A stretch of 34,983 bases of DNA from an uncultured Spartobacteria bacterium (GTDB lineage Bacteria; Verrucomicrobiota; Verrucomicrobiia; Chthoniobacterales; UBA6821). A program made the translations under genes and the position numbers. This document shows, one piece after another, positions 1 through 14,544 of the stretch. The DNA lies in the NCBI GenBank assembly GCA_903868795.1, contig CAIPWR010000002.1, forward strand, positions 1-34,983, given 5' to 3'. The first letter of the stretch is position 1; the number at the start of each line of letters is the position of its first letter. The notes under the pieces are model-generated. The model was not told the origin of the DNA. It saw only the letters and a program-made list of their open reading frames with translations, and searched no databases.

Positions 1-1569
1 CAGTCGCTTCATGCCGAAGATACCAACGCACTCGGAGCAGTCGCCGCAAAAGAACTTCCTCCGATTGCTCCAGGACGCTTCCAGCCAACGGACGAATCCC
101 TGAAGCAGTATCAATATCCTGAGTGGTTTCGCGACGCGAAACTCGGATTCTGGTCTCACTGGGGACCGCAGGCCGTGCCGCGCCACGGCGATTGGTATGC
201 GAGGAAACTCTACATCGGGACGGGCTACGTTGACCAAAGGAAAGGGACCGTGGCGAAGCAGAATGAATCCGATTACACCGATCACCTTGCCCGCTACGGC
301 CACCCTTCCGAGAAAGGCTACAAGGACATCATTCCTCTCTGGAAAGCCGAGAAGTGGGATCCCGAAGCCCTGATGGCGCTCTACAAGAAAGCGGGGGCAA
401 AATACTTCGTCAGCATGGGAACCCACCATGACAACTTCTTCATGTGGGACTCAAAGTTGCACAAGTGGAATGCCGTGCAGATGGGGCCTCACAAGGATGT
501 GGTCGCTACCTGGCAGAAAGCGGCCAAAGCCAACGGCCTCCCCTTTGGTGTCTCCGAACACCTTGCGGCGAGTTACACTTGGTTTCAAGCCGCTCATGGG
601 GCCGATGTCCAGGGGCCGAAGAAGGGAGTGCCCTACGACGGGAACGATCCGAAGAATCAGGATCTCTACCACAAGAAGCTTCCGGCCGACGATCATGAGT
701 GGCTGACAAAAGATCCCGAAAACCAGAAGGAGTGGAACGCCATGATCCGCGAATTGGTGGATACCTATCATCCCGACCTCCTCTATTCCGACAGCAAATT
801 GCCTTTTGGTGACGTGGGCCGAAATCTAATCGCCAACTTCTACAACGGCAACGAGGCCTTCCATAACGGCAAACTGACAGCGGTCTACAACTGCAAGGAA
901 CCCTCCCAGGGCCGCTTCGTTCAGGATCTGGAGCGCGGCGTGAAGGATGATATCAGTCCCTACCCATGGCAGACCGACACCTCCATCGGCGATTGGTTTT
1001 ACAGCACTGGCCAAAAGTACAAGAGCGCAGCCGAGGTGACCGCGATGCTCTGTGATATCGTCAGCAAAAACGGCAACCTGCTCATCAACATCGTCCAGAC
1101 GCCGGAGGGAGACCTTGAGCCGGACGTGCTCGCCATAGTCGACGGGATAGGCAAATGGACCGCGATCAACGGTGAGGGAATTTATGCCACCCGACCTTGG
1201 AAGATCTCGGGAGAGAATCCTTCACCCGCTTCACCGACACCGACTCCCGATCCGAAGAAGAGCGAGATGTTCAATGAGGGAAAGCAAAAACTGAACGCTC
1301 AGAACATCCGCTTCACCATGAGCAAGGATGGCAAGACCCTCTATGCGTTCTGCCTTGGTGAACCGCAGGGGGACATTGCAATCAAGGCCCTCGGATCAGC
1401 ATCGGGCAAGTTGGAGAAGCCGATCGCTTCCGTCACCCTGCTTGGTGGCAAAAATGATCTCACGTGGAAGCAGAACGCAGATGTCTTGATGATCACAAAG
1501 CCTGCCACGTGCCCGCTCCCAGGCATGCCCGTCGGCTTCAAAATCACCTTCAAGGAAACTAAGGAGTAA
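1..1569 (+). CDS. GH29 alpha-L-fucosidase family hydrolase, 5' partial
   Basis: The reading frame is already open at base 1, so the true start and any signal peptide lie outside the window; the GTG at 175 is internal. The window start encodes the GH29 signature PEWFRDAKLGFWSHWGPQ, followed by a HHDNFFMW strand. PDLLYSDS follows, whose second Asp (codon 790-792) is the likely catalytic nucleophile of this retaining family. SKNGNLLINI closes the barrel. A Pro/Thr-rich linker (SPTPTPDP, about 1222-1257) leads to a C-terminal beta-sandwich domain. GH29 enzymes release terminal alpha-L-fucose, and some members act on alpha-L-galactose. It is the first visible gene of a nine-gene operon, and the downstream enzymes suggest its product is oxidised to 6-phosphogluconate, which favours L-galactose. 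Family assignment is firm; substrate is inference. Confidence 0.93.
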   Translation, partial: QSLHAEDTNALGAVAAKELPPIAPGRFQPTDESLKQYQYPEWFRDAKLGFWSHWGPQAVPRHGDWYARKLYIGTGYVDQRKGTVAKQNESDYTDHLARYGHPSEKGYKDIIPLWKAEKWDPEALMALYKKAGAKYFVSMGTHHDNFFMWDSKLHKWNAVQMGPHKDVVATWQKAAKANGLPFGVSEHLAASYTWFQAAHGADVQGPKKGVPYDGNDPKNQDLYHKKLPADDHEWLTKDPENQKEWNAMIRELVDTYHPDLLYSDSKLPFGDVGRNLIANFYNGNEAFHNGKLTAVYNCKEPSQGRFVQDLERGVKDDISPYPWQTDTSIGDWFYSTGQKYKSAAEVTAMLCDIVSKNGNLLINIVQTPEGDLEPDVLAIVDGIGKWTAINGEGIYATRPWKISGENPSPASPTPTPDPKKSEMFNEGKQKLNAQNIRFTMSKDGKTLYAFCLGEPQGDIAIKALGSASGKLEKPIASVTLLGGKNDLTWKQNADVLMITKPATCPLPGMPVGFKITFKETKE

Positions 1570-1578
1570 ATCGACACC

Positions 1579-2514
1579 ATGGAATACCGCATTCTCGGCA
1601 AAACAGGCATCAAGGTCTCGAAGCTTGCCTTCGGCGGCTCGTCCCTCGGCTCCGTCTTTCGTTCCGTTGCGGAGGAAGATGGGATCCGTACCGTCCATAC
1701 GGCGCTCGATCACGGGATCAACCTCATCGATACCGCCCCTTACTACGGTGCCACGAAAGCGGAGGCTGTCTTGGGAAAAGCCCTCAAGGGTGTCGCACGA
1801 GAGCGGTACTTGCTGGCTACCAAGGTGGCCCGTTTCGGTGCCGAGATCGGGGACTTTGATTTCTCCGCCGCGAGGGTTGCCTCAAGCATTGAGGAGAGTC
1901 TGGAACGGCTCGGCGTCGATCACTTCGACTTCATCCAAGTGCATGACATGGAGTTCGGAAACATTGATCAGATCGTCAGTGAGACCATACCAGCCTTACG
2001 CCAGGCCCAAAAGGCTGGTAAGGCACGGTTCGTCGGCATCACCTGCCTGCCGGTACGCCTGTTCAAGCAGGTGATGGATCAGGTCGATATCGACCAGATC
2101 CAGTCCTACTGTCACTACGGACTCAACGACACGGTACTTGCCGACATCCTTCCCTACCTGAAGGAAAAGCAGGTCGGCATCTTTAACTCCGCACCGCTCG
2201 CCATGCGCCTGCTCACCCAGGAGGGTCCTCCCGCATGGCACCCAGCACCTTTAGAGGTACAGGCCAAGTGTGCCGAAGCCGCCGCCTACTGTGCCTCGCA
2301 GGGAGCCGATTTTGCGAAGCTGGCACTCCAGTTTTCGGTGGCCCATCCCGACATCCACACGACAATCGTCGGCACGGCGAACCCCGAACGGATCCTCGAA
2401 AATATCCGCCAGATTGAGGAACCGATGGACGCTTCCCTCCTGGCTAGGGTGCAGGAAATCCTCAAGCCAATCCATAATGTCACTTGGTCAAGCGGCCGCC
2501 CTGAGAACAACTAA
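1579..2514 (+). CDS. Aldo-keto reductase, L-galactose/L-fucose 1-dehydrogenase-like
   Basis: This is a 311-residue AKR barrel with the tetrad visible as D51, Y56, K82 and H122. From memory it closely resembles plant L-galactose dehydrogenase across its length: FDFSAARV, SIEESLERLGVD, HDMEFGN, QIVSETIPAL, VGITCLP, SYCHYGLND, SAPLAMRLLT and GPPAWHPA all have near-identical counterparts there. Bacterial relatives oxidise L-galactose, L-fucose and D-arabinose at C1 to the lactone with NAD(P). It follows the GH29 gene by 9 nt and has an AAGGAG ribosome-binding site overlapping that gene's stop, one of the few clear ones here. The likely role is oxidation of the sugar freed by the GH29 enzyme. Fucose versus galactose preference cannot be read from the sequence alone. 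Confidence 0.88.
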   Translation: MEYRILGKTGIKVSKLAFGGSSLGSVFRSVAEEDGIRTVHTALDHGINLIDTAPYYGATKAEAVLGKALKGVARERYLLATKVARFGAEIGDFDFSAARVASSIEESLERLGVDHFDFIQVHDMEFGNIDQIVSETIPALRQAQKAGKARFVGITCLPVRLFKQVMDQVDIDQIQSYCHYGLNDTVLADILPYLKEKQVGIFNSAPLAMRLLTQEGPPAWHPAPLEVQAKCAEAAAYCASQGADFAKLALQFSVAHPDIHTTIVGTANPERILENIRQIEEPMDASLLARVQEILKPIHNVTWSSGRPENN

Positions 2515-2532
2515 ATTCAACAACCCAAACCC

Positions 2533-2925
2533 ATGCTCAAATCCGGCATTCTCAATCCTGACATCCTCTCCCTAATAGCTCGGGTCCGTCATACCAACAC
2601 AATCGTGATCGCAGACCGGGGATTCCCGTTCTGGCCTCAGATCGAAACGATCGACATCTCGCTGATCGACGGACTGCCGACCGTGAATCAGGTTCTCGAG
2701 GCCCTGCTTCCCTCCGTCGACATGGGTCAGGCCTACATGGCGAAGCAGTTCACCGCCGTGAATCCAAAAACCGTGGTGGCGGTCCGGAAAAAGATTCTTG
2801 GCAAGATCCCCCTCTCCTTTGAAGACCACGAGGCTTCGTTCAAGAAGCGTATCCTCGGAGCGATCGGGCTGATCAGGACGGGCGATACCACGCACTATTC
2901 CAACATCATCCTCGTCTCGGCCTGA
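2533..2925 (+). CDS. RbsD/FucU family sugar mutarotase (pyranase)
   Basis: The 130-residue protein matches the size of RbsD/FucU mutarotases. The active-site residues known from RbsD are at the expected places: H20 and D28 in RHTNTIVIADRGFP, H99 in FEDHE, and Y122 and N124 in the C-terminal HYSNIIL strand. These enzymes speed the interconversion of ring and anomeric forms of free sugars, and family members form ring-shaped decamers. Sitting between the dehydrogenase and the putative lactone hydrolase, it probably supplies the anomer the dehydrogenase uses (L-fucose or L-galactose). There is no Shine-Dalgarno sequence; the leader is A/C-rich (caacaacccaaaccc). RbsD versus FucU subtype is not resolved; context favours the FucU-like role. 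Confidence 0.85.
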   Translation: MLKSGILNPDILSLIARVRHTNTIVIADRGFPFWPQIETIDISLIDGLPTVNQVLEALLPSVDMGQAYMAKQFTAVNPKTVVAVRKKILGKIPLSFEDHEASFKKRILGAIGLIRTGDTTHYSNIILVSA

Positions 2926-2936
2926 GGCTCTTGCCG

Positions 2937-3590
2937 ATGCGTCTGATCGACCTCTCCCAGCCCGTCACCGATGGCGGGCCAAATTGCCCGGTCCACCCCC
3001 CGATCTCTGCAAAAGTCGTGGCAACGCATGCCAAGGACAATTGGCACATGGAGGTAATCACGCTGGCCACCCACACCGGCAGCCATCTCGATGCACCTCT
3101 TCACAAGATCGATGGCGGGAAATCGATCGATCAGATTCCCCTCGAGTCTTTCTTAGGGGAGGCAGTGCTTGTGGATCTCCTCGACTCTACTGCGGACAGA
3201 TCAATCGGTGCCGAGTTGCTGGCTTCACGCCTCGAGGGAGACCTCACGGATCGTATCATCCTACTGGCCACTGGCTGGGGGGAATTCCGTGCCGCCACTG
3301 ACGAGTGGCACTTCCATTCGCCTTACCTCGCCCCCTCCGGGGCACAGTGGCTTGTCGATCAGGGGATCCGTGCCGTCGGAATCGACCATTATTCCATCGG
3401 TGGAAGCCGTGATCCGGACAACACGCGCACCCACGAGATCCTGCTCGGCAACGGACTCTGGGTTGTGGAAGACCTGCGTTTCCCTGTCGAGATCTTTGCT
3501 ATCGGGCCCCGCTTTCGATTCATGGCCCTACCGATAAACTTTCCCGGACACTCCGGCGCCTTCTGCCGCCCGGTCGCCGTGATTGAATAA
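2937..3590 (+). CDS. Cyclase-family metal-dependent hydrolase, candidate aldonolactonase
   Basis: The 217-residue protein carries the cyclase/kynurenine formamidase-family metal motif HxGxHxDxPxH as H46-T-G-S-H50-L-D52-A-P-L-H56, and a conserved GIDHYSIGG segment further on. The family (PF04199) contains zinc or manganese hydrolases that open amide or ester rings, such as kynurenine formamidase and isatin hydrolase. I chose the ATG at 2937, 11 nt after the preceding stop, over a TTG six bases earlier, because it fits the usual MRLIDLSQP start. No tryptophan genes are nearby. Between an aldose 1-dehydrogenase and aldonate enzymes, the missing step is lactone hydrolysis, so I infer an aldonolactonase. 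That function is not proven for this family branch. Confidence 0.8.
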   Translation: MRLIDLSQPVTDGGPNCPVHPPISAKVVATHAKDNWHMEVITLATHTGSHLDAPLHKIDGGKSIDQIPLESFLGEAVLVDLLDSTADRSIGAELLASRLEGDLTDRIILLATGWGEFRAATDEWHFHSPYLAPSGAQWLVDQGIRAVGIDHYSIGGSRDPDNTRTHEILLGNGLWVVEDLRFPVEIFAIGPRFRFMALPINFPGHSGAFCRPVAVIE

Positions 3591-3622
3591 ATAGCCCCAT
3601 CACCTCACCAACTCCACCTACC

Positions 3623-4861
3623 ATGAAGCTCCCAACATTCACACTCGGCATCGGCGACCGCTTCGCTCACCAGGGAAAAGCCCAACTTCGCGCCCTTCAA
3701 AAAGCGGTTGCGCACGGAGTCGAGGTCTCGCCGGTCTGGAACAAGTCCAACCGCGAACACAACCTGATCGGCACGGAGCCATCCTCCTTGCGAGCCGAAG
3801 CGGATGAGGCGGTCGCCTCCCTTGGTTGGAAGGCGCCCTACTTCGTCGACGCGGATCATATCAACCTGAAAACCGTCGACCGCTTCCTGGAGGCCTCCGA
3901 CTTTTTCACGATCGATGTGGCTGACTCGATCGGAAAAGAACCCGATCCCGCCGCCGTCGAGCGTTTGGTGGCAAAGCATGCCGGCGATCCGATCGATTAT
4001 CCGGGTCTTTCCATGCCGATTCTCAGAGGCAGGGAGCAGATCGCCAATGCCGCCGCAAAATTCCTGGCCGCGATGCAGGAAGCCGGGGAGGTCTACCGTC
4101 ATATCGCTGCCCGCAAGCCTGCGGGATCGTTCGCCGTCGAGGTCTCCACTGACGAAGCCTCGGCACCACAGACACCCGCCGAACTCTACCTCATCCTCGC
4201 GATGCTGGCCGATGAGGGAGTTCCCGTGGCCACAATCGCTCCGAAATTCACCGGCCAGTTCAATAAGGGTGTCGATTACGAGGGAAACATCGCCGACTTC
4301 ACCCGCGAGTTTGAGGATGATCTCATCGTGCTCAAACATGCCGGTCCGGCCCTTGGACTTCCCGAGGGACTGAAACTCAGCGTTCACTCCGGCAGCGATA
4401 AGTTCAGCATCTATCCCGTGATCAATCGTCTGGTGAAGAAGCACGGCTCGGGACTCCACCTCAAGACGGCCGGCACAACTTGGCTCGAGGAGATCGCGGC
4501 GATCGCAGGATCGGGGGAAGAGGGAAAAACCTTGGCCGCGGGTATCTATGCCGATGCCCTCGCCCGCTACGAGGAGGTCACGGCACCCTATGCCACGGTG
4601 CTTCATATTGACAAAGCGCTGCTTCCTCCTGCCGTGGAGGTGGTCTCTTGGGACGGAGCACGTCTTTCCCGTGCGATCATCCATGAGCAGACCTGCCCAG
4701 ACTTCAATCCCCACGTTCGACAGCTTTTTCACGTCGCCTTCAAGCTTGCCGCCGAATCCGGCTCCAAGTTCACGGATCTGCTCAAGCTGCATGATGAAGC
4801 CGTTGGCACAGCCGTGACCGGCAATCTTTGGGAGCGCCATCTCAAGCCCCTGTTCCTCTAA
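3623..4861 (+). CDS. uxaE: UxaE-like tagaturonate epimerase family protein
   Basis: The 412-residue protein has features I associate with the tagaturonate 3-epimerase family: GIGDRFAHQGKAQL at the N-terminus, VDADHINL (75-82), EVSTDE (173-178), APKFTGQFNKGVDYEGN (206-222) and KLSVHSGSDKFSIYP (251-265). UxaE interconverts D-tagaturonate and D-fructuronate at C3 and is a metal-dependent, probably TIM-barrel enzyme. The next two genes encode a dehydrogenase able to make tagaturonate and a fructuronate reductase, so the predicted substrate has both a source and a sink in this operon. The start lacks a Shine-Dalgarno and follows an A/C-rich leader (caccaactccacctacc). A related epimerisation on a deoxy analogue cannot be excluded. 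Confidence 0.82.
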   Translation: MKLPTFTLGIGDRFAHQGKAQLRALQKAVAHGVEVSPVWNKSNREHNLIGTEPSSLRAEADEAVASLGWKAPYFVDADHINLKTVDRFLEASDFFTIDVADSIGKEPDPAAVERLVAKHAGDPIDYPGLSMPILRGREQIANAAAKFLAAMQEAGEVYRHIAARKPAGSFAVEVSTDEASAPQTPAELYLILAMLADEGVPVATIAPKFTGQFNKGVDYEGNIADFTREFEDDLIVLKHAGPALGLPEGLKLSVHSGSDKFSIYPVINRLVKKHGSGLHLKTAGTTWLEEIAAIAGSGEEGKTLAAGIYADALARYEEVTAPYATVLHIDKALLPPAVEVVSWDGARLSRAIIHEQTCPDFNPHVRQLFHVAFKLAAESGSKFTDLLKLHDEAVGTAVTGNLWERHLKPLFL

Positions 4862-4879
4862 CGCCAACGACCATCTGCC

Positions 4880-5899
4880 GTGAATGCCATCATCCTCAGC
4901 GAACCCGGAAAACTCGCCCCTCATGACGCACCCGAACCTGCAACACCTGGAGTCGGCGAGGCCCTGATCCGTGTCCACCGTATCGGTTTCTGCGGCACCG
5001 ATTATCATGCCTTTCACGGCAGGCAGCCGTTCTTCGACTATCCGCGTATTCTCGGCCATGAACTCGGCGTCGAGGTTCTGGCGGTCGGGGAGGGGGTTTC
5101 AAATATTGCGGTCGGCGACAAATGCAGCATCGAGCCCTATTTGAACTGCGGCTCCTGCCACGCTTGCCGCAAGGGCCGCGCCAACTGCTGCAGCAACATG
5201 AAGGTTCTCGGCGTCCATGTGGATGGGGGAATGAGGGAGCGTCTAGTAGTTCCTGCAGCCAAACTGCACGTTTCCAAAACCCTCTCTTACGATGCCCTCG
5301 CCTTGGTGGAGACCTTGGCGATCGGCGCGCATGCCATCGACCGAGCGGCCGTCGAAAAAGACGAGACCGTCGTGGTGATCGGAGCGGGTCCGATCGGGTT
5401 GGCCGCCGTCCAGTTTGCCCTATTGCGCGGCGCCCGCGTGATGGTGATCGATCGTGCCGCTCCCCGTCTTGAGGCCTGCTCTCGTCTCTATCCCGCGGTA
5501 ATCACTCTAGATCCCGAAAAATCGTTCATCGAACAGCTGACTTCGATCACGTGCGGAGATCTTGCCGACACGGTGATTGATGCCACCGGCAATCTCGCCT
5601 CCATGGGAGGCTCGCTCGAGTATGTGGGCCACACGGGGCGACTTGTCTATGTCGGGCTCGCACAAGGAGAGGTCACTTTTAATGATCCGCTCTTTCATCG
5701 TCGTGAGATAACTCTCCTCGCGAGCCGGAATGCCCTTTCCAAAGATTTCCCGGAGATCATCAGCGCCATGGAGCAGGGCAAGATCGATCCCCTTGCCTGG
5801 ATCACTCACCGCTGCACCCTTGCTGAAATTCCGGAAAAGCTACCTCTGTGGAGTGAGCCGAAGGCGGGTGTGATCAAGGCGGTTGCTTCCCTCTCCTGA
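4880..5899 (+). CDS. Zinc-dependent alcohol dehydrogenase, L-galactonate 5-dehydrogenase-like
   Basis: This is a 339-residue medium-chain dehydrogenase. Catalytic-zinc residues are C38 and H60-E61 (GHE), structural-zinc cysteines are C90, C93, C96 and C104, and the NAD-binding GAGPIG is at 169-174. Close families are threonine/sorbitol dehydrogenases and the E. coli LgoD (YjjN) type that oxidises L-galactonate at C5 to D-tagaturonate. Context decides: the gene lies 18 nt after the UxaE-like epimerase and 20 nt before a fructuronate reductase-type SDR, so tagaturonate formation is the natural role. The start is GTG at 4880 with no visible ribosome-binding site. Enzyme class is sure; the LgoD role is inferred. 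Confidence 0.85.
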   Translation: MNAIILSEPGKLAPHDAPEPATPGVGEALIRVHRIGFCGTDYHAFHGRQPFFDYPRILGHELGVEVLAVGEGVSNIAVGDKCSIEPYLNCGSCHACRKGRANCCSNMKVLGVHVDGGMRERLVVPAAKLHVSKTLSYDALALVETLAIGAHAIDRAAVEKDETVVVIGAGPIGLAAVQFALLRGARVMVIDRAAPRLEACSRLYPAVITLDPEKSFIEQLTSITCGDLADTVIDATGNLASMGGSLEYVGHTGRLVYVGLAQGEVTFNDPLFHRREITLLASRNALSKDFPEIISAMEQGKIDPLAWITHRCTLAEIPEKLPLWSEPKAGVIKAVASLS

Positions 5900-5919
5900 A
5901 TCGGTGAATATCCCCTCTC

Positions 5920-6747
5920 ATGAAGTCATCAATAGATTCCAAAACGCTTTTTGATCTCACTGGAGAAGTCGCCGTGGTGATCGGTGCCACCGGTGTCCTT
6001 GGCGGTGCGGTCGCCGAGGGGCTTGCATCCTCAGGAGCGACGGTAGCCGTGCTTGGACGCAATGCTGAGCGTGGCGCCGAATGCGTTGCCCGAATCGTTG
6101 CGGCGGGTGGGAAAGCTGATTTTTTCCCTGCTGATGCCTCTTCGCGCGATAGCCTTGAGAAAGCACTGGTTGCGATTTCACGTGTCCATGGAGAGCCGAC
6201 CATCCTGGTCAATGCGGCCGGTGGCAACGATCCCTCCGTAACAGTGACCGCCGAGAATCCCTTCGAGAAAATCAGCGAAACGGATTGGACGAAAAGCTTC
6301 GACATGAACTTAGTTGGAGGAGCGCTTTTGCCATGTCAGGTCTTCGGCAGCGCCATGGCGGATAAAGGGCGCGGCAGCATCATCAACATCGCCAGCGTCT
6401 CCGCGCATCTTCCGCTCTCCCGCGTGGTCGCCTACTCTTCGGCCAAAGCCGCGGTCCTTAATCTGAGCCAATTTCTTGCCCGCGAATGGGCTCCTAAGGG
6501 AGTCAGGGTGAATACGATCACTCCAGGATTCTTCCCTGCAGAGCAGAACCGAAAGCTTCTCTTCAACGACGACGGATCTCCGACCCCACGGGCGGCCAGC
6601 ATCCTAGGCCACACACCCATGGGTCGGTTCGGCACCTCTTCCGAATTGATTGGAGCCGCGGTATTCCTTGCGAGTAATGCTGCCAGCGGTTTTGTCACGG
6701 GAATCGACCTGCGTGTGGACGGTGGATTCCTCAGCCAGACCATCTGA
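5920..6747 (+). CDS. uxuB: SDR oxidoreductase, D-fructuronate reductase (UxuB/YjmF type)
   Basis: The 275-residue classical SDR has the nucleotide-binding GATGVLG at 22-28, NAAGG at 98-102, and the catalytic set S159 / Y172 / K176 (YSSAK). The stretch PGFFPAEQNRKLL and the C-terminal ILGHTPMGRFG with FVTGIDLRVDGGF are typical of Bacillus/Thermotoga-type D-mannonate oxidoreductases, which reduce D-fructuronate to D-mannonate. These are unrelated to the E. coli long-chain UxuB. It directly follows the tagaturonate-forming and epimerising enzymes, as expected. No mannonate dehydratase (UxuA) follows; instead a LarA-like protein and a gluconokinase do. Confidence 0.85.
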   Translation: MKSSIDSKTLFDLTGEVAVVIGATGVLGGAVAEGLASSGATVAVLGRNAERGAECVARIVAAGGKADFFPADASSRDSLEKALVAISRVHGEPTILVNAAGGNDPSVTVTAENPFEKISETDWTKSFDMNLVGGALLPCQVFGSAMADKGRGSIINIASVSAHLPLSRVVAYSSAKAAVLNLSQFLAREWAPKGVRVNTITPGFFPAEQNRKLLFNDDGSPTPRAASILGHTPMGRFGTSSELIGAAVFLASNAASGFVTGIDLRVDGGFLSQTI

Positions 6748-6758
6748 TCACTCAATCG

Positions 6759-8021
6759 ATGAGCGCTCATCTCACCGCAGAACAGGTCGCCGCGATTGTT
6801 GCCAAAGGCATTCCGGCGGAAGGAATGAGAGGCAAGCGCGTGCTGCTGATCATTCCCGATGCGACACGGAGCTGCCCGCTCGGGATGGTGTTCAAGGAAG
6901 TTTATAACCATCTCGTTTCCGAAGTTGCTTCCTTGGATGTGATGGTCGCCCTTGGGACACACCCCCCGATGAGCGAGGAGGCTATTTGTGAGCGCCTCGA
7001 GATCACGCCGGAGGAGCACGCCTCTCGGTATGCCAAGGTCGGGTTTCTCAACCACGAATGGGATAATCCGAATGCCCTCAGGCAGATCGGTGTTCTCACT
7101 CCTGCCGAAATCAGTGATCTCTCCGGCGGGCTCTTCTCAATGGAAGTGCCCGTCACTATCAATGAGCGTCTTTTCGATTACGACGAACTGCTGATTATCG
7201 GCCCAGTTTTCCCGCATGAGGTTGTCGGTTTTTCTGGAGGCAACAAGTACCTTTTCCCCGGCGTTGCTGGGCCGGAAATCCTGAATTTCTTCCATTGGCT
7301 GGGAGCGGTCGTTACGAATCCGATGATCATCGGCCACAAGTGGACACCCGTTCGGAAGGTTGTTGACCGGGCTGCCGCCCTTGTGCCGATCCCGAAGCGC
7401 TGCCTTTGCATGGTCGCGGACAAAGGCGGCCTAGCCGGACTCTTTGCCGGCACGCCGGAGCAGGCTTGGGACGAGGCTTCCGAACTTTCCCGGAAGCTCC
7501 ATATCACGACCAAACCGCATCCCTTCCATACCATCCTCTCGTGCGCCCCGGCGATGTACGACGAGCTCTGGGTCGGCGGCAAATGCATGTACAAGCTGGA
7601 GCCTGTGCTTGCCGATGGCGGAGAGCTGATCATCTACGCACCACACATCCATGAGGTCTCGGTGGTTCATGGCAAGCTGATCGAGGAGATCGGCTATCAC
7701 TGCCGCGATTATTTCCTCGGCCAGTGGGACCGGTTCAAGCATTACCCTTGGGGAGTCATCGCGCACAGCACGCACGTCCGCGGGGTAGGAACCTACGAAA
7801 ACGGTGTCGAACAGTGCCGCGCCAAGGTGACCCTTGCCACGGGGATTCCCAAGGAGATCTGCGAGCGGATCAACATGGGATACCGTGATCCAGCTTCGAT
7901 CCGGATCGAGGACTTTGCCGATCGCGAGGAGGAGGGGGTTCTCCTCGTGCCGAAGGCTGGCGAGATGCTTTTCCAACTCGAGAATCCGGCGCCATGGGCG
8001 GCTGGTTGTGACCGTCCATGA
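6759..8021 (+). CDS. LarA-superfamily nickel-pincer racemase/epimerase, candidate D-mannonate/D-gluconate 2-epimerase
   Basis: The 420-residue protein belongs to the lactate racemase (LarA) superfamily. Key LarA residues are present: DATRSCP (D34, R37), GTHPPM (H68), PHEVVGFSGGNKYLFPG (H153 and K163) and FFHW (H179). The H153-K163-H179 spacing (10 and 16) equals LarA H174-K184-H200, including the lysine that carries the nickel-pincer cofactor and the nickel-binding histidine. LarA enzymes invert the hydroxyl carbon next to a carboxylate. Here the preceding enzyme would deliver D-mannonate, and the next gene, overlapping by ATGA, is gluconokinase. The simplest role is therefore 2-epimerisation of D-mannonate to D-gluconate. 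The cofactor genes larB, larC and larE are not in this window. Family is firm; substrate is a strong inference. Confidence 0.87.
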   Translation: MSAHLTAEQVAAIVAKGIPAEGMRGKRVLLIIPDATRSCPLGMVFKEVYNHLVSEVASLDVMVALGTHPPMSEEAICERLEITPEEHASRYAKVGFLNHEWDNPNALRQIGVLTPAEISDLSGGLFSMEVPVTINERLFDYDELLIIGPVFPHEVVGFSGGNKYLFPGVAGPEILNFFHWLGAVVTNPMIIGHKWTPVRKVVDRAAALVPIPKRCLCMVADKGGLAGLFAGTPEQAWDEASELSRKLHITTKPHPFHTILSCAPAMYDELWVGGKCMYKLEPVLADGGELIIYAPHIHEVSVVHGKLIEEIGYHCRDYFLGQWDRFKHYPWGVIAHSTHVRGVGTYENGVEQCRAKVTLATGIPKEICERINMGYRDPASIRIEDFADREEEGVLLVPKAGEMLFQLENPAPWAAGCDRP

Positions 8022-8500
8022 GCCTTCATGTGGTCATGGGGGTTTCGGGCTGCGGAAAAAGCAGCGTTGCTGCACGGCTTGCTACTGCCAAGGGGGGAGA
8101 CTTTCTGGATGCCGATGATTTCCATCCGTCGGCCAATAAAGCAAAGATGGCGGCAGGCATTCCCCTTCAGGATGAGGACCGTGCGGGCTGGTTGGACACC
8201 TTGAATGCAGAATTAAAGAGTCGCGCAGCAAACGGCAGGGATACCTTCCTAGCCTGCTCTGCCCTGAAGCAGATTTACCGAGATCGCCTCTCCGCAGGGC
8301 TGCCTTCCTTGGGTTTCATCTATCTGAAAGGCTCGCGCGAGGCGATCCGAAGCCGCCTGGAGCGACGCACGGATCACTTCATGCCTTCTACGCTTTTGGA
8401 AAGTCAGTTTTCCACGCTGGAGGAACCGACGGGTGCCTTGACGGTCTCGATTGAGCAATCTCTCGAACATGTCGTCGAAGAGATCCTTAAGAGGATCTGA
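8018..8500 (+). CDS. gntK: Gluconokinase
   Basis: The 160-residue P-loop kinase has the usual GntK size. Walker A is GVSGCGKSS (8-16), followed by the family blocks DADDFHPSANKAKM, GIPLQDEDRAGWL, CSALKQIYRDRL and HFMPSTLLESQF-LEEP. It phosphorylates D-gluconate at O6 to 6-phosphogluconate, feeding the Entner-Doudoroff or pentose phosphate route. Its ATG overlaps the stop of the LarA-like gene (ATGA, 8018-8021), a sign of translational coupling and of a shared pathway. A 6-bp hairpin at 8482-8497 lies in its last codons. It is the last gene of the operon; the next gene is convergent. Its need for a C6 hydroxyl constrains the pathway: a 6-deoxy (fucose-derived) acid could not be its substrate. 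Confidence 0.95.
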   Translation: MSLHVVMGVSGCGKSSVAARLATAKGGDFLDADDFHPSANKAKMAAGIPLQDEDRAGWLDTLNAELKSRAANGRDTFLACSALKQIYRDRLSAGLPSLGFIYLKGSREAIRSRLERRTDHFMPSTLLESQFSTLEEPTGALTVSIEQSLEHVVEEILKRI

Positions 8501-8533: not shown

Positions 8534-9385
8534 TCAGGAGCGTGACTGCCAAGCACTGGGCGTCATTCCGGTCTGTCGACGGAACCAACGGGAGAAGTAA
8601 TTCGCATCGGAAAAACCGAGCCGCACCGCTGTCTCCCCGATCGCGCCCCCCTTGGCAAGTTCCCGCTCGCTGGCACGGAGCATTTCTTTGGCACGCCATT
8701 GTCCCAGGGTCAGGCCTGTGGATCGTCTGACAAGACGGTTCAGATAGTCCTGCTGCAGTCCGACGCGGCGAGCGAGTTCTCCGGGAGTTGGCGGTAGTCC
8801 CTCCCGGTCTATTGATCGGAGCAGGCGCCTGGTGACCGCCGTGCCTTGTCTTGAAGTGACGGGATGGGCCACGCAAGCCCGGCGGCACGACTCGAGAAGG
8901 AGCAAGGCTGTGCCTCCAGCGCCGAGCTCCAGGTTGCCTGATCGCTCCGACCGATCCGGGCTTTCATGGGCAAGCTGATTAAGGCGTTCGCGGACCTGCG
9001 CCAGCTCTTCGGCCGGCAGCCAACCGGTTCCTCGCCCGAATTTTCTCGGCCCCTCCCCGCCCAGATCAGCCACCAGGCAGATCGCCAGTCGGGGGGCTTC
9101 TTCGAGAAACGCATGCTCAGTCCCCGCGGGAATGAAAAAGACCGCTCCTGGCGCGACGGGGTGAAGCTCTCCTCCAATTCGCTGCCGTCCCCTGCCTCGC
9201 AGATAGACGAGAAGTTGTCCGTGGGAATGGCGGTGGGGGCTCTCCTTGTCGAAGGGCTGCAGATGGCGGTTAAGCCTAAGCTCGTTCACCGACCAGTCTC
9301 CGCAGCGCAGGTGAAGGCGCTTCAATAGGATCGGCCGTAATGGGGAATCTCCCTTTTTTCTGGCGGATTTTCTGGCGGTTGGCAT
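8534..9385 (-). CDS. AraC-family transcriptional regulator with cupin sensor domain
   Basis: In this 283-residue protein an N-terminal cupin/AraC-binding domain (about 25-170, with HRHSH at 51-55 and IPAGTEHAF) precedes a C-terminal double helix-turn-helix domain (about 185-283). The latter includes ARRVGLQQDYLNRLVRR and the family signature GFSDANYFSRWFRRQTGMTP. Such regulators sense small molecules, usually sugars, and activate adjacent catabolic genes. It is convergent with the gluconokinase operon (33 nt apart) and divergent from the SDR-GH88 operon, so it most likely controls the latter and possibly both. The start is ATG (complement of 9383-9385). Ligand unknown. Confidence 0.93.
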   Translation of the reverse strand: MPTARKSARKKGDSPLRPILLKRLHLRCGDWSVNELRLNRHLQPFDKESPHRHSHGQLLVYLRGRGRQRIGGELHPVAPGAVFFIPAGTEHAFLEEAPRLAICLVADLGGEGPRKFGRGTGWLPAEELAQVRERLNQLAHESPDRSERSGNLELGAGGTALLLLESCRRACVAHPVTSRQGTAVTRRLLRSIDREGLPPTPGELARRVGLQQDYLNRLVRRSTGLTLGQWRAKEMLRASERELAKGGAIGETAVRLGFSDANYFSRWFRRQTGMTPSAWQSRS

Positions 9386-10311: not shown

Positions 10312-11694
10312 ATGATAACACTTGATACAACACTGACTCCCTCCACGCTGAAGGGGGCTGCTGACCGCGTCTTCGAGGCCTCAGCACCGAAAATCGCCAA
10401 CCTTCAGAAGCGCTGGAAGGATGCGGACGGCACCCCGGTCTTCACCATCGAAGGCAAATACACTTCCCGTGGATGGACCGAGTGGACGCAGGGCTTCCAG
10501 TACGGGGCCGCAATCCTTCAGTACGACGCCACGGGCGACGAGGAGATGCTTCGTATCGGTCGCGAAGGAACGCTTCGCCTCATGGCTCCGCACATCACCC
10601 ACATCGGTGTCCATGACCATGGCTTCAACAATGTCAGCACTTACGGCAATCTCCGCCGCCTCTTGCAGGAGGGTCGTCTGCCAGCCAATGAGTGGGAGGG
10701 GCATTTCTACGACCTCGCGCTGAAGGCAAGTGGTGCAGTCCAGGCCTCCCGCTGGACGCAGCTCACACCTGAACTCGGCTACATCTATTCTTTCAACGGA
10801 CCACACTCGCTGTTCTCCGACACCGTGCGTTCCCTTCGTGCGCTTGCAGTGGGCCACTCCCTTGGTCACCGCCTGATGGGTGAGAATGACAAGGCCTCCT
10901 CGCTCCTCGGACGCATTATCCAGCACGCCGAGACGACGGCCCGTTATAACGTCTACTACGGCAAGGGACGCGACATTTATGACCTTCCCGGACGCGTCGT
11001 CCACGAGTCGATCTTCAACACGAATGACGGCAACTACCGCTGCCCCTCAACCCAGCAGGGCTATACCCCTTTCTCCACTTGGACACGTGGCCTTGCCTGG
11101 ATCCTCTGTGGCTATCCCGAGCAGATGGAATACCTTGAGCAGCTCTCAGACGCCGAGCTAGCCCCCTTAGGTGGCAAGCAGGCCCTGCTCGACCGTTACC
11201 TCGAGGTCTCCACAGCCGTGGCGGAGTTCTACATCCGCGAGACCCCCACCGACGGTATCCCCTACTGGGATACCGGTGCTCCCGGACTTGTCCATCTCGG
11301 AGACTACAACGACCGTCCCGCCGATCCCTTCAATGACCATGAACCAGTCGACAGCTCTGCCGCCGCCATCGGTGCTCAGGGATTGCTTCGTCTTGGTCGC
11401 TACCTCGATCGCCATGGAAAGAAAGAGGAGGGCGCCCGTTACACGGCCGCCGGTCTCACTGCTGCCAAAACCCTCTTCTCAGAGCCTTACCTCAGCCTCG
11501 ATCCCAACCACGAGGGACTTCTTCTCCATACCGTCTACCACCGTCCCAACGGATGGGATCACATCCCTGCCGGCCGCAAGGTTCCTTGCGGCGAATCGGC
11601 CATGTGGGGTGACTACCATCTCCGCGAGTTGGCACTTCAGATCCAGCGCCTCGCCACGGGTGCTCCCTACCTCACCTTCTTCGGCAAGATTTGA
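10312..11694 (+). CDS. GH88-type unsaturated uronyl hydrolase
   Basis: The 460-residue (alpha/alpha)6-barrel hydrolase resembles unsaturated glucuronyl hydrolases. GVHDHGF (D102) fits the first catalytic aspartate motif, and D170 in HSLFSDTVRSL is a candidate for the second. FNDHEPVDSSAAAIGAQGLL and the C-terminal block YHRPNGWDHIP / PCGESAMWGDYHLRELAL are typical of the family. GH88 enzymes hydrate the double bond of 4,5-unsaturated uronic acids on lyase-made oligosaccharides, releasing an unstable unsaturated monouronate. There is no signal peptide, so it is probably cytoplasmic. The neighbours supply plausible next steps (cupin, SDR, kinase). The polysaccharide (pectin, ulvan or glycosaminoglycan) is not identifiable. 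Confidence 0.85.
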   Translation: MITLDTTLTPSTLKGAADRVFEASAPKIANLQKRWKDADGTPVFTIEGKYTSRGWTEWTQGFQYGAAILQYDATGDEEMLRIGREGTLRLMAPHITHIGVHDHGFNNVSTYGNLRRLLQEGRLPANEWEGHFYDLALKASGAVQASRWTQLTPELGYIYSFNGPHSLFSDTVRSLRALAVGHSLGHRLMGENDKASSLLGRIIQHAETTARYNVYYGKGRDIYDLPGRVVHESIFNTNDGNYRCPSTQQGYTPFSTWTRGLAWILCGYPEQMEYLEQLSDAELAPLGGKQALLDRYLEVSTAVAEFYIRETPTDGIPYWDTGAPGLVHLGDYNDRPADPFNDHEPVDSSAAAIGAQGLLRLGRYLDRHGKKEEGARYTAAGLTAAKTLFSEPYLSLDPNHEGLLLHTVYHRPNGWDHIPAGRKVPCGESAMWGDYHLRELALQIQRLATGAPYLTFFGKI

Positions 11695-11703
11695 TCTAAC
11701 AGT

Positions 11704-11731
11704 CTTCAGCCTAAAACCCAAACAGCCTAAC
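11704..11731. repeat. Paired 'cagcctaa' repeats in the GH88-cupin gap
   Basis: Two copies of cagcctaa (cttcagcctaaa and aacagcctaac) lie in the 39-nt gap before the cupin gene. The same octamer or its complement recurs at about 13408-13424, 14552-14587 and 14829-14836, always outside the coding regions I assigned. Confidence 0.6.
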
Positions 11732-11733
11732 CA

Positions 11734-12183
11734 ATGATCATCGCAGACCTCGCCCAAACAGCCGGCCGCACCTATCCGGCCCGTCGCCGCACCCAGAATA
11801 TCGTCGGGGGTGTTTCCCCGATCCAGGCCACTAACTTCGCCATGGGGAACGTGACCCTAGAACCGAACGGAGGCCAGGTTCCCTGGCACAATCAGGAACA
11901 GGAGGAGGTCTACTTCATCGTCGAGGGAGAGGGGGAGATGTGTCTCGGTGAAGAGAGAGTTGCGGTCAAGGCAGGTCAAGCCGCCTACTTCCCCTCCGGC
12001 ATCTTCCACCAGCTCACCAACACCGGCTCGACCCCGATGCGCATGATCTACGTCTATGGACCCGCCGGTGATGTCGCCCACTGGAAGCAGGAGCTGGAGG
12101 GAACACTTCCTCCTGCGGGCGTCGGCGCCACTCCGCCACTGCCTGCCGGTGCCCAGCCTCAGTGCACCAAGAAACCTGAATAA
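11734..12183 (+). CDS. Small cupin-domain protein, candidate unsaturated-uronate isomerase
   Basis: This single-cupin protein of 149 residues has motif 1 WHNQEQEEVYFIVEGEGE and motif 2 PSGIFHQLTNTG. The metal ligands appear to be His, Gln and Glu plus a later His, a variant of the usual His-His-Glu-His set. A low-complexity Pro/Gly/Ala tail follows residue 125. It sits between the GH88 hydrolase and an oxidoreductase. Small cupins of the KdgF type convert 4,5-unsaturated monouronates to their linear keto form, which would fit directly after GH88. I see no KdgF-specific signature, so this is a context guess. Cupin family membership is certain. Confidence 0.85.
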   Translation: MIIADLAQTAGRTYPARRRTQNIVGGVSPIQATNFAMGNVTLEPNGGQVPWHNQEQEEVYFIVEGEGEMCLGEERVAVKAGQAAYFPSGIFHQLTNTGSTPMRMIYVYGPAGDVAHWKQELEGTLPPAGVGATPPLPAGAQPQCTKKPE

Positions 12184-12228
12184 TTCTGTTCAACCCATTC
12201 ACAAAACAACCACACCAACATTGAAATT

Positions 12229-13383
12229 ATGAAAGAACACCGCATCGGCATCATCATGAACGGCGTCACGGGACGCATGGGTACCAACCAGCACCTCCTT
12301 CGCTCCATCAAGGCGATCATCGACCAAGGTGGAGTCCGCATCGGTGACGATGAAGTCATCATCCCGAACCCGATTCTTGTCGGACGTAGCGCTTCCAAGC
12401 TGGTCGAGTTGGCCAAGCGGGCGGGTCTTCCCGAGGATCGTATCTCCACCGATCTGGATGCCGTGCTCAAAGATCCGGAGAACCAGATTTATTTCGACTC
12501 CACTCTTACCGGACAGCGGCCCTCGGGAGTCCGTAAGGCAATCAAGGCTGGAAAGCACATCTACTGCGAGAAGCCGACTGCCACGACCTCGGCCGAAGCG
12601 CTTGCACTTTATCAAGAGGTGACCGCTGCTGGCCTGAAGAACGGTGTTGTTCAGGACAAGCTCTGGCTCCCAGGTCTCCTCAAACTCAAGTACCTCATCG
12701 ACACCGGCTTCTTCGGCGAGATCCTCTCCGTACGGGGTGAGTTCGGATACTGGGTCTTCACTGGCGAACACGAGAAGCTCCAGCGTCCCTCTTGGAACTA
12801 CCGTAAAGAAGATGATGGCGGCATCATCGTCGACATGCTCTGCCACTGGCAGTACGTCATCCAGAATCTCTTCGGCGAGATCAAGTCGCTCACCTGCCTA
12901 GGTGCCACCCACATTCCGACGCGTTGGGATGAGAAGGGAAAGACTTACAAGTGCACGGCTGATGATTCCGCCTACGCCACCTTCGAGCTGGAGAATGGCG
13001 TGATCTGTCACTTCAACTCCTCCTGGACCGTTCGTGTGAACCGCGAGGATCTGCTGACCCTCCAGGTAGATGGAACCAAGGGAAGCGCCGTTGCCGGACT
13101 CCGTGACTGCAAAGCCCAGGCTCATGCCGCCACACCTCGTTGCGTGTGGAATCCCGATATCGACAGCCCGATCGACTACAAGGATGGCTGGACCCGCGTC
13201 CCTTCCAACGACACTTACGACAACGCCTTCAAGGTGCAGTGGGAGCTTTTCCTCAAGCACGTGGTGAAGAACGAACCCTTCCCTTGGAATCTCCTTCAAG
13301 GCGCCAAGGGAGTTCAGCTTGCCGAACTTGGCCTCCAGTCCTGGGAGGAGCGTCGCTGGTTGGACGTTCCCAAGCTCGGCTGA
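12229..13383 (+). CDS. Gfo/Idh/MocA family oxidoreductase
   Basis: The 384-residue protein has an N-terminal Rossmann fold with an unusual GVTGRMG (12-18) nucleotide loop. The family hallmark EKP (114-116, GKHIYCEKPT) is followed by an alpha/beta substrate domain with DDGGIIVDMLCHW providing the typical Asp/His pair. These enzymes oxidise or reduce sugars and inositols with NAD(P). In this operon it probably acts on the sugar acid or an uncommon sugar released with the uronate. The exact reaction cannot be told. The leader is A/C-rich with no Shine-Dalgarno (aaaacaaccacaccaac). Confidence 0.9.
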   Translation: MKEHRIGIIMNGVTGRMGTNQHLLRSIKAIIDQGGVRIGDDEVIIPNPILVGRSASKLVELAKRAGLPEDRISTDLDAVLKDPENQIYFDSTLTGQRPSGVRKAIKAGKHIYCEKPTATTSAEALALYQEVTAAGLKNGVVQDKLWLPGLLKLKYLIDTGFFGEILSVRGEFGYWVFTGEHEKLQRPSWNYRKEDDGGIIVDMLCHWQYVIQNLFGEIKSLTCLGATHIPTRWDEKGKTYKCTADDSAYATFELENGVICHFNSSWTVRVNREDLLTLQVDGTKGSAVAGLRDCKAQAHAATPRCVWNPDIDSPIDYKDGWTRVPSNDTYDNAFKVQWELFLKHVVKNEPFPWNLLQGAKGVQLAELGLQSWEERRWLDVPKLG

Positions 13384-13443
13384 TTGCACCAAAGCCGCAG
13401 AACCTATCAGCCTTCAGCCTAAATTACTAACTGCCTGATTCCT

Positions 13444-14544
13444 ATGTCCATCCTGACACTTCGTCCTGCAGAACAATGCCGCTATGATGAGATCTCCATG
13501 GGGGAGGTCATGCTCCGCCTCTGCCCGGGAGAGGGCCGCATCAAGACAACCCGTTCCTTCAAGGCCTCCGAGGGAGGTGGCGAGTACAACGTGGCCCGGG
13601 GACTCCGTCGCTGCTTCGGACTGCGCACCGCGCTCCTGAGCGCTTTCGCGGAGAACGAAGTTGGCAGGTTGATCGAGGATCTGATCCTTCAGGGCGGAGT
13701 TGACGACACCTTCGTCAAGTGGGTCCCCTACGACGGCATCGGGCGCACTGTTCGCAATGGACTCAACTTCACCGAGCGTGGCTTCGGCGTGCGCGGCGCG
13801 GTGGGTGTCTCCGACCGCGGCATCACCGCCGCCTCGCAGATCAAGCCCTCCGACTTCGACTGGGATCACATCTTTGGCACGCTGGGAACCCGCTGGTTCC
13901 ACACAGGCGGAATCTTTGCGGCACTCAGCGAGAGCGCGGCCGAGACCGTCATCGCGGCCACCGAGGCGGCGCACCGCAACGGCGTCATCGTTTCCTACGA
14001 CCTCAACTACCGCCCTTCACTCTGGAAGGCGATCGGGGGCAAAGAGAAGGCGCAGGCAGTCAATAAGCACATCGCCAGGAACGTCGATGTCATGATCGGC
14101 AACGAAGAGGACTTCACTGCCTGCCTCGGCCTCGAGGTCAAGGGAGCCGACCACAACCTCACCAACCTCGAGCTCGACAGCTTCAAGGCAATGATCGCCG
14201 AGGCCGTGAAGGCCTACCCTAACTTCAAGGTCGTCGCCACCACGATGCGTGGTGTGAAGACCGCCACCATCAACGACTGGGGCGCCATCTGCTGGGCGGG
14301 CGGGAAGTTCTATGAATCGACTCACTATCCCGATCTCGAGATCCTGGATCGCGTCGGCGGCGGAGACAGCTTCGCTTCCGGACTGATCTACGGATTCCTC
14401 ACCACCGATGATCCGCAGATAGCGGTCAATCTCGGTGCCGCCCACGGGGCGCTTGCGATGACCACACCCGGCGACACCTCGATGGCCTCGCTTTCAGAGG
14501 TTAAGAAGCTCGCCGGCGGCGGTGGAGCCCGGGTAGATCGGTAA
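13444..14544 (+). CDS. kdgK: PfkB-family sugar kinase, 2-keto-3-deoxygluconate kinase-like
   Basis: This is a 366-residue ribokinase-fold protein. The substrate-binding N-terminus has SEGGGEYNVARGL, the middle has SYDLNYRPSLW, and the catalytic signature is DRVGGGDSFASGL with base D308. The SYDLNYRPSLW segment resembles 2-keto-3-deoxygluconate kinases. Its product, 2-keto-3-deoxy-6-phosphogluconate, is the normal end of the unsaturated-uronate pathway implied by the GH88 and SDR genes. No KDPG aldolase gene is in the window. It is longer than typical KdgK (about 310-340) because of insertions around 220-250. Kinase class is certain; substrate probable. Confidence 0.85.
   Translation: MSILTLRPAEQCRYDEISMGEVMLRLCPGEGRIKTTRSFKASEGGGEYNVARGLRRCFGLRTALLSAFAENEVGRLIEDLILQGGVDDTFVKWVPYDGIGRTVRNGLNFTERGFGVRGAVGVSDRGITAASQIKPSDFDWDHIFGTLGTRWFHTGGIFAALSESAAETVIAATEAAHRNGVIVSYDLNYRPSLWKAIGGKEKAQAVNKHIARNVDVMIGNEEDFTACLGLEVKGADHNLTNLELDSFKAMIAEAVKAYPNFKVVATTMRGVKTATINDWGAICWAGGKFYESTHYPDLEILDRVGGGDSFASGLIYGFLTTDDPQIAVNLGAAHGALAMTTPGDTSMASLSEVKKLAGGGGARVDR

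Follow-up and report, generated by a model that had tools for sequence, protein, structure and literature searches.

Two described bacterial systems come close to the locus analysed here. In Luteolibacter sp. LG18, the lgu pathway serves the catabolism of L-glucose and L-galactose (PMC12632266), and in Thermotoga maritima the operon gnd-uxaR-uxaE-uxaD-gntE-gntK has been described (PMC3750489). We report a nine-gene operon at positions 1-8500 of a 34,983-nucleotide stretch of DNA (hereafter the window) from an uncultured Spartobacteria bacterium, which combines genes of both kinds and probably constitutes a catabolic route from terminal alpha-L-galactose to 6-phosphogluconate. As contig C2, the window belongs to a draft genome of 2.77 Mb (169 contigs, 97% complete, 0.9% contamination).

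Like the window, LG18, a member of the same phylum, has an L-galactose dehydrogenase named as an aldo-keto reductase (AKR) and an NAD-dependent L-galactonate dehydrogenase yielding D-tagaturonate; unlike the route proposed for the window, which would pass through fructuronate, mannonate and gluconate, that of LG18 is described as leading from tagaturonate to altronate and on to 2-keto-3-deoxygluconate (KDG) and its 6-phosphate (KDPG) (PMC12632266). L-galactose and L-galactonate dehydrogenases like those proposed for the window are also reported for Bacteroides vulgatus (BVU_0219 and BVU_0222; via PMC12632266). Neither a tagaturonate reductase nor an altronate dehydratase of the LG18 type is among the nine window genes; both types are present in a second operon, on contig C148, which is the LG18-like one of the same draft genome. 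In B. vulgatus, too, the later steps are those of tagaturonate reductase and altronate dehydratase.

In T. maritima, as in the window, UxaE, a mannonate oxidoreductase of the short-chain dehydrogenase/reductase (SDR) type (UxaD; PMC5673643), a LarA-type epimerase and a gluconokinase are encoded in one operon, which there belongs to a pectin/galacturonate regulon, whereas in the window these genes stand behind L-galactose genes (PMC3750489). Only LarA was compared directly (with 4nar); the other genes were matched in kind. A D-galacturonate route of Lactobacillus suebicus likewise takes mannonate to 6-phosphogluconate without KDG but, unlike the window proposal, with the kinase first and the epimerase second, and its genes were not identified there (PMC6978723). 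The original prediction held that no described pathway joins L-galactonate and gluconokinase. This stands for the join itself, of which no description was found in the open-licence literature, a scope that leaves out most subscription journals; both halves had already been described separately (PMC12632266, PMC3750489), and, as far as searched, it is the join that is newly proposed here. To the accompanying view that mannonate dehydratase (UxuA) and KDG are the usual exit, the gluconate route of T. maritima is a known exception (PMC3750489, PMC7583248).

The families of the nine open reading frames were named by Pfam and NCBIfam searches, and the frames are as follows:

1..1569, + strand: GH29, probably an exported exo-alpha-L-galactosidase (PF01120, 283 bits; 5' end on contig C125)
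1579..2514, + strand: AKR of the L-galactose 1-dehydrogenase type (PF00248)
2533..2925, + strand: RbsD/FucU-type sugar mutarotase (PF05025, 91.7 bits)
2931..3590, + strand: PF04199 metal-dependent hydrolase ("cyclase"), putative L-galactonolactonase (96.6 bits)
3623..4861, + strand: UxaE, tagaturonate-fructuronate epimerase (PF16257, 173 bits, over cut-off)
4880..5899, + strand: Zn-dependent medium-chain dehydrogenase (Zn-ADH), putative L-galactonate 5-dehydrogenase (PF08240/PF00107)
5920..6747, + strand: SDR of the D-mannonate oxidoreductase subfamily, putative fructuronate reductase (NF006132, 308 bits, cut-off 281)
6759..8021, + strand: LarA-superfamily nickel-pincer epimerase, putative D-mannonate/D-gluconate 2-epimerase, GntE-like (PF09861, Lar_N)
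8018..8500, + strand: gluconokinase of the GntK/IdnK type (TIGR01313, 178 bits, cut-off 114)

All nine genes were found on the + strand where the original prediction had placed them. The intergenic gaps are, in gene order, 9, 18, 5, 32, 18, 20, 11 and -4 bp, as in one operon, the last value reflecting a 4-bp overlap of the GntK-type kinase frame with the LarA frame. GH29 is truncated by the contig start; over its first 119 bases the gene matches the end of contig C125 exactly. In the joined C125-C2 frame the first GH29 ATG lies about 90 bp behind a gene for an AraC-type regulator, and the start of the protein on C125 is signal-peptide-like, as judged by eye. The claim that no obvious step is missing had overlooked uptake: no transporter is among the nine window genes by Pfam, and the sister operon on C148 has a FucP-type one. 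The gene grouping appears to be more than chance, because from RbsD onward the block is found again in G126, another genome of the genus, and C148 of the same draft genome carries a paralogous operon with the upper genes.

Gene content, gene order, protein families, the paralogous operon and the cofactor genes are observed, and every reaction of the route is a prediction. The exported GH29 would free L-galactose, to be imported by a transporter encoded elsewhere. The AKR would oxidise the sugar at C1, with the RbsD-like protein speeding anomer exchange, and the PF04199 hydrolase would open the lactone to L-galactonate, which the Zn-ADH would oxidise at C5 to D-tagaturonate. UxaE would then epimerise D-tagaturonate to D-fructuronate and the SDR would reduce this to D-mannonate, after which the LarA-type enzyme, with its nickel-pincer cofactor, would invert C2 to give D-gluconate, and gluconokinase would form 6-phosphogluconate for the pentose phosphate pathway. 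The reaction order of the assembled route, as originally predicted, is well supported by the sequence.

The best evidence for the assembled route is the sister operon on C148, which encodes, in order, a FucP-type transporter, GH29, AKR, RbsD, cyclase, a dehydratase family protein, tagaturonate reductase, Zn-ADH and a PfkB kinase. The shared proteins are 84% (GH29), 89% (AKR), 92% (RbsD), 87% (cyclase) and 80% (Zn-ADH) identical to those of the window. The transporter scores over the FucP cut-off, the tagaturonate reductase (UxaB) reaches 364 bits with NF002969 (cut-off 359), the dehydratase carries galactarate/altronate-dehydratase domains over the Pfam cut-offs, and the PfkB kinase matches KDG-kinase models best without reaching their cut-offs. 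Because the two operons have the same entry genes and different exit genes, D-tagaturonate is likely their common intermediate and the fork between them; in the C148 operon the same upper steps would be followed by an exit of tagaturonate through altronate and KDG. Tetranucleotide distance was tried as a test of whether C148 belongs to the genome and rejected: distances to the window were 0.100-0.198 for other genus genomes, 0.109-0.268 for own contigs and 0.127 for C148, so that other genus genomes were as near as own contigs and the test has no power (contigs C76, C155, C66 and C68, with GH29 matches, were used for composition only).

With respect to the substrate, the best solved chains for the window GH29 were 7ljj, 7snk and 7lnp (228-230 bits; 7ljj 230), and the next protein scored 172. 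These three chains are one enzyme, BpGH29, an exo-alpha-L-galactosidase that takes part in porphyran degradation in Bacteroides plebeius, 7snk being labelled a fucosidase (PMC12316285); the window GH29 is nearer to this solved L-galactosidase than to solved fucosidases. The five best solved chains for the AKR are all L-galactose dehydrogenases (317-358 bits; next 92). LguA of LG18 prefers L-galactose over L-glucose, is inactive on L-fucose and is grouped by its authors with known L-galactose dehydrogenases, its tie to the window AKR being indirect, via that grouping (PMC12632266). Given the affinities of GH29 and AKR and the inactivity of LguA on L-fucose, L-galactose fits best and is likely, rather than L-fucose, to be the substrate of the operon.

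For the middle steps, the RbsD protein scores 90.5 bits with the model for D-ribose pyranase (cut-off 93) and 22 bits with that for L-fucose mutarotase (cut-off 141), and is thus nearer to the former. The candidate for the predicted lactone-opening step is a PF04199 "cyclase", for which a metal-dependent hydrolase and kynurenine formamidases are the best matches of known structure; its frame may start at ATG 2937, where that of the paralogue starts. To our knowledge, PF04199 includes no characterised sugar lactonase. AKR neighbourhoods were taken from 19 of the 47 other order genomes with an AKR and from the best 80 of at least 580 named loci, giving 99 loci that include at least one genome twice (L122, L178). 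Of these, 5 had a cyclase relative at most 8 kb from the AKR and 31 had an amidohydrolase (assigned to PF04909 in the three cases tested), with no locus holding both; this would fit a shared lactonase role, weakly, because only about 1.6 joint cases are expected. The Zn-ADH, which is retained in both operons, has NF007489 as its best NCBIfam model (196 bits, under the cut-off of 376) and RspB as its best solved chain (4ilk, 156 bits).

In the lower half, the solved relatives of UxaE are UxaE structures (best 6ilb, 101 bits), and at E 1e-40 the SDR has a single solved match, a 2-hydroxycyclohexanecarboxyl-CoA dehydrogenase (177 bits). GntK passes the TIGR01313 subfamily model and stays under the cut-offs of two narrower gluconokinase models. 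The nearest solved chain for LarA is 4nar (221 bits), which is GntE2 of T. maritima, an enzyme shown in vitro to epimerise free D-mannonate (PMC7583248). All 30 loci scored (the top 30 LarA matches, own included, with residues placed by the 4nar alignment and the residue names in PMC7583248) retain residues D34, R37, H68, H153, E154, V155, K163, H179, W271 and K275 of LarA; these cover the catalytic and nickel-pincer nucleotide-binding residues, the W that precedes the catalytic lysine and the E-V loop, the score leaving aside the third region (alpha 14).

The genome of the window encodes two cofactor proteins over their cut-offs: LarC, whose gene runs off a contig end, at 401 bits and LarE at 276 bits. 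Among 197 genomes of the order, LarA, counted at E 1e-20 and so including fragments and two matches of 27-30% identity beside better ones, was found in 76, LarC in 85 and the pair in 68; LarC occurred in 68/76 LarA genomes versus 17/121 others (p 2e-27, overstated since the genomes are related). Within the genus, 12 of 16 genomes have LarA. Some LarC matches in the order contain one in-frame stop or are split in two (model positions about 1-235 and 236-375). In Lactobacillus, LarC arises through frameshifting, and the pattern would be as expected if frameshifting occurred here too.

No UxuA match at E 1e-20 and no ManD over cut-off was found in the genome of the window, and LarA is therefore the only mannonate exit found there; 6-phosphogluconate dehydrogenase is also encoded. 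ManD scored over cut-off in none of the five genomes tested. Across the order, UxuA was matched in 10 of 197 genomes, several matches being partial, and no avoidance between LarA and UxuA was seen (UxuA in 6/76 LarA genomes and 4/121 others, p 0.19).

An AKR of the window type (E 1e-60) is present in 48 of the 197 order genomes and in 3 of the 16 genus genomes. LarA and GntK were found within 8 kb of the AKR in none of the 99 other AKR loci, UxaE in 17 (in Verrucomicrobiota and Planctomycetota) and UxaA in 12, with UxaE and UxaA never together (p 0.12). Besides the window, only G126 showed the join, and there from RbsD, where its contig begins. One AKR locus from another family (L116) has UxaE near the AKR and an SDR 72% identical to that of the window; neither this SDR nor the UxaE of the genus genome G036 reached an NCBIfam family with the guessed frames used, and a dehydratase at L140 had an NCBIfam match under cut-off.

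Viewed from LarA, 39 neighbourhoods besides that of the window were available, from 39 of the 75 other LarA genomes, many contigs ending nearby: an SDR of at least 69% identity was present in 23, GntK in 14 and an AKR of at least 40% identity in none. In G057 (L039, 6098-11486), UxaE, SDR, LarA, GntK and UxaC lie on one strand and appear to form, in Verrucomicrobiota, a hexuronate-to-gluconate operon of the Thermotoga kind. SDR-LarA was also seen close behind dnaA and dnaN, a core-genome position (G044, L042, 10424-15702). A UxaE tree, inspected for separate L-galactose-linked and hexuronate-linked clades, gave 6 AKR-label changes against a shuffled mean of 6.2 (23 rows; the LarA-linked label of L036 merely reflects a contig that stops short of the AKR); the clades are not separate, and the tree says nothing about the origin of UxaE.

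Two further genes of the window lie beyond the operon:

8534..9385, - strand: AraC-type regulator facing the operon (PF12833; same position in G126)
13444..14544, + strand: PfkB-type kinase, KDG-kinase-like (PF00294 over cut-off; KDG-kinase models under theirs)

Counterparts of the KDG-kinase-like gene stand directly after Zn-ADH in the sister operon on C148 and in G036. Between 9463 and 14544 the window carries genes for an SDR, a GH88-like protein (under the Pfam cut-off), a cupin-like protein (by eye), a Gfo/Idh/MocA dehydrogenase and the PfkB kinase, a possible unsaturated-uronate block. Further along, at 33378-34970 on the - strand, an Acyltransferase_3 match falls in two stretches with ankyrin repeats after the first, an odd domain arrangement.

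The most serious rival, which we regard as rather unlikely, is that SDR-LarA-GntK is a hexuronate module that happens to stand behind the L-galactose genes, so that L-galactose would be degraded mainly via C148 and the lower genes would serve D-glucuronate or D-galacturonate through UxaC. UxaC is indeed encoded in the same genome, on contig C113, and hexuronates may consequently share the lower half of the route. The GH88-like and KDG-kinase-like genes at 10312-14544, the lack of an RbsD, cyclase, Zn-ADH or AKR match at 40% identity in 38 of the 39 other LarA neighbourhoods, the position of SDR-LarA behind dnaA and dnaN in G044, and the presence in G075 of SDR-LarA-GntK at the chromosomal site of the window, without L-galactose genes, all speak for such a module. 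Against it, gaps of 18 and 20 bp bind UxaE, ADH and SDR together, UxaE sits within the L-galactose block and would make the substrate of the SDR, and L116, from another family, joins its SDR, 72% identical to that of the window, to an L-galactose block. A lower half shared by hexuronates and L-galactose is possible and would be compatible with the L-galactose route.

The two remaining rivals concern single steps or the substrate. Degradation of L-fucose by the operon is scarcely credible: the GH29 family is named for alpha-L-fucosidases and the C148 transporter passes the FucP cut-off, but the nearest relatives of the AKR and of GH29 are L-galactose enzymes. A 6-deoxy sugar such as L-fucose would also offer gluconokinase no 6-OH to phosphorylate. 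Of the two sugars originally proposed, L-galactose or L-fucose, the former is accordingly retained. A separate possible L-fucose cluster exists on contig C74 (L134, 3762-10982), where genes for a symporter, Zn-ADH, enolase-superfamily protein, GH29 and SDR stand in a row; this cluster is a candidate L-fucose or other hexonate locus, and the nearest solved relative of its enolase-superfamily protein is 3tj4 (454 bits). As a mannonate dehydratase that protein was rejected (135 bits versus the ManD cut-off of 550; another dehydratase model scores better and is also not passed). The inactivity of LguA on L-fucose points the same way, linked to the window AKR only through the authors' grouping (PMC12632266). 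Improbable, though less so than L-fucose, is a reversed order of the last steps, with the kinase acting on D-mannonate and the epimerase on the 6-phosphate. Kinase-then-epimerase activity was measured in L. suebicus extracts, but that paper did not identify the genes (PMC6978723), and GntE2, the closest solved relative of LarA, epimerises free D-mannonate (PMC7583248).

Several observations weigh against the route from L-galactose to 6-phosphogluconate. The full join is limited to the window and the partial G126 locus. G036, of the same genus and 97% complete, has the upper genes and UxaE without LarA, SDR, UxuA or ManD over cut-off, so that UxaE in an L-galactose-type operon is no proof of a gluconate exit. 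In G094 the L-galactose operon has an altronate exit and SDR-LarA-GntK lies on another contig, and G057 also has a partial UxuA match, the two exits not being exclusive. BpGH29 shares a sequence cluster with true fucosidases, which the authors call not isofunctional (PMC11189522), and it is the only L-galactosidase reference, so that kinship of GH29 alone is no proof. Neither the AKR nor the Zn-ADH passes a curated NCBIfam model; with NF052594 (group-18 hexonate epimerase, cut-off 500) LarA stays at 173 bits, so that no curated subgroup claims it; and the L-galactonolactonase role of the PF04199 cyclase was assigned by elimination. Membership of C148 in the genome rests on binning, composition leaving it undecided.

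The origin of the operon can be approached through a chromosomal site next to an aminotransferase gene that is shared by the window, G036 and G075. At this site G036 carries an L-galactose-type operon with UxaE (L109, 7859-14545), in which the KDG-kinase-like gene comes immediately after GH29-AKR-RbsD-UxaE-ADH; G075 has SDR-LarA-GntK without L-galactose genes; and the window has both gene sets and the GH88-like block, as does G126 from RbsD on. The ADH and KDG-kinase-like tail of C148 (L035, 8207-10402) is 97.6% identical to that of G036 (L109, 12350-14545), whereas identity falls to 75% in the upper genes. Most simply, the operons would be mosaics between which parts are exchanged, a duller alternative for the tail being a stray contig from a G036-like species in the bin. 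On balance we lean towards a picture in which one genome holds two L-galactose operons that split after D-tagaturonate, one leading to KDG/KDPG and the other through a nickel-pincer enzyme to 6-phosphogluconate, and in which exits have been swapped as cassettes by recombination in shared genes within the genus.

In Verrucomicrobiota and Planctomycetota, UxaE stands beside genes of the L-galactose dehydrogenase type, an indication that a fructuronate branch of L-galactose catabolism extends beyond one operon. If the proposed route is correct, bacteria would have a second exit for L-galactose that leads to 6-phosphogluconate without passing through KDG, and the LarA superfamily would gain a role in neutral-sugar catabolism. 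The paired operons allow a direct test of the tagaturonate fork and illustrate how gene swapping may replace the lower half of a pathway.

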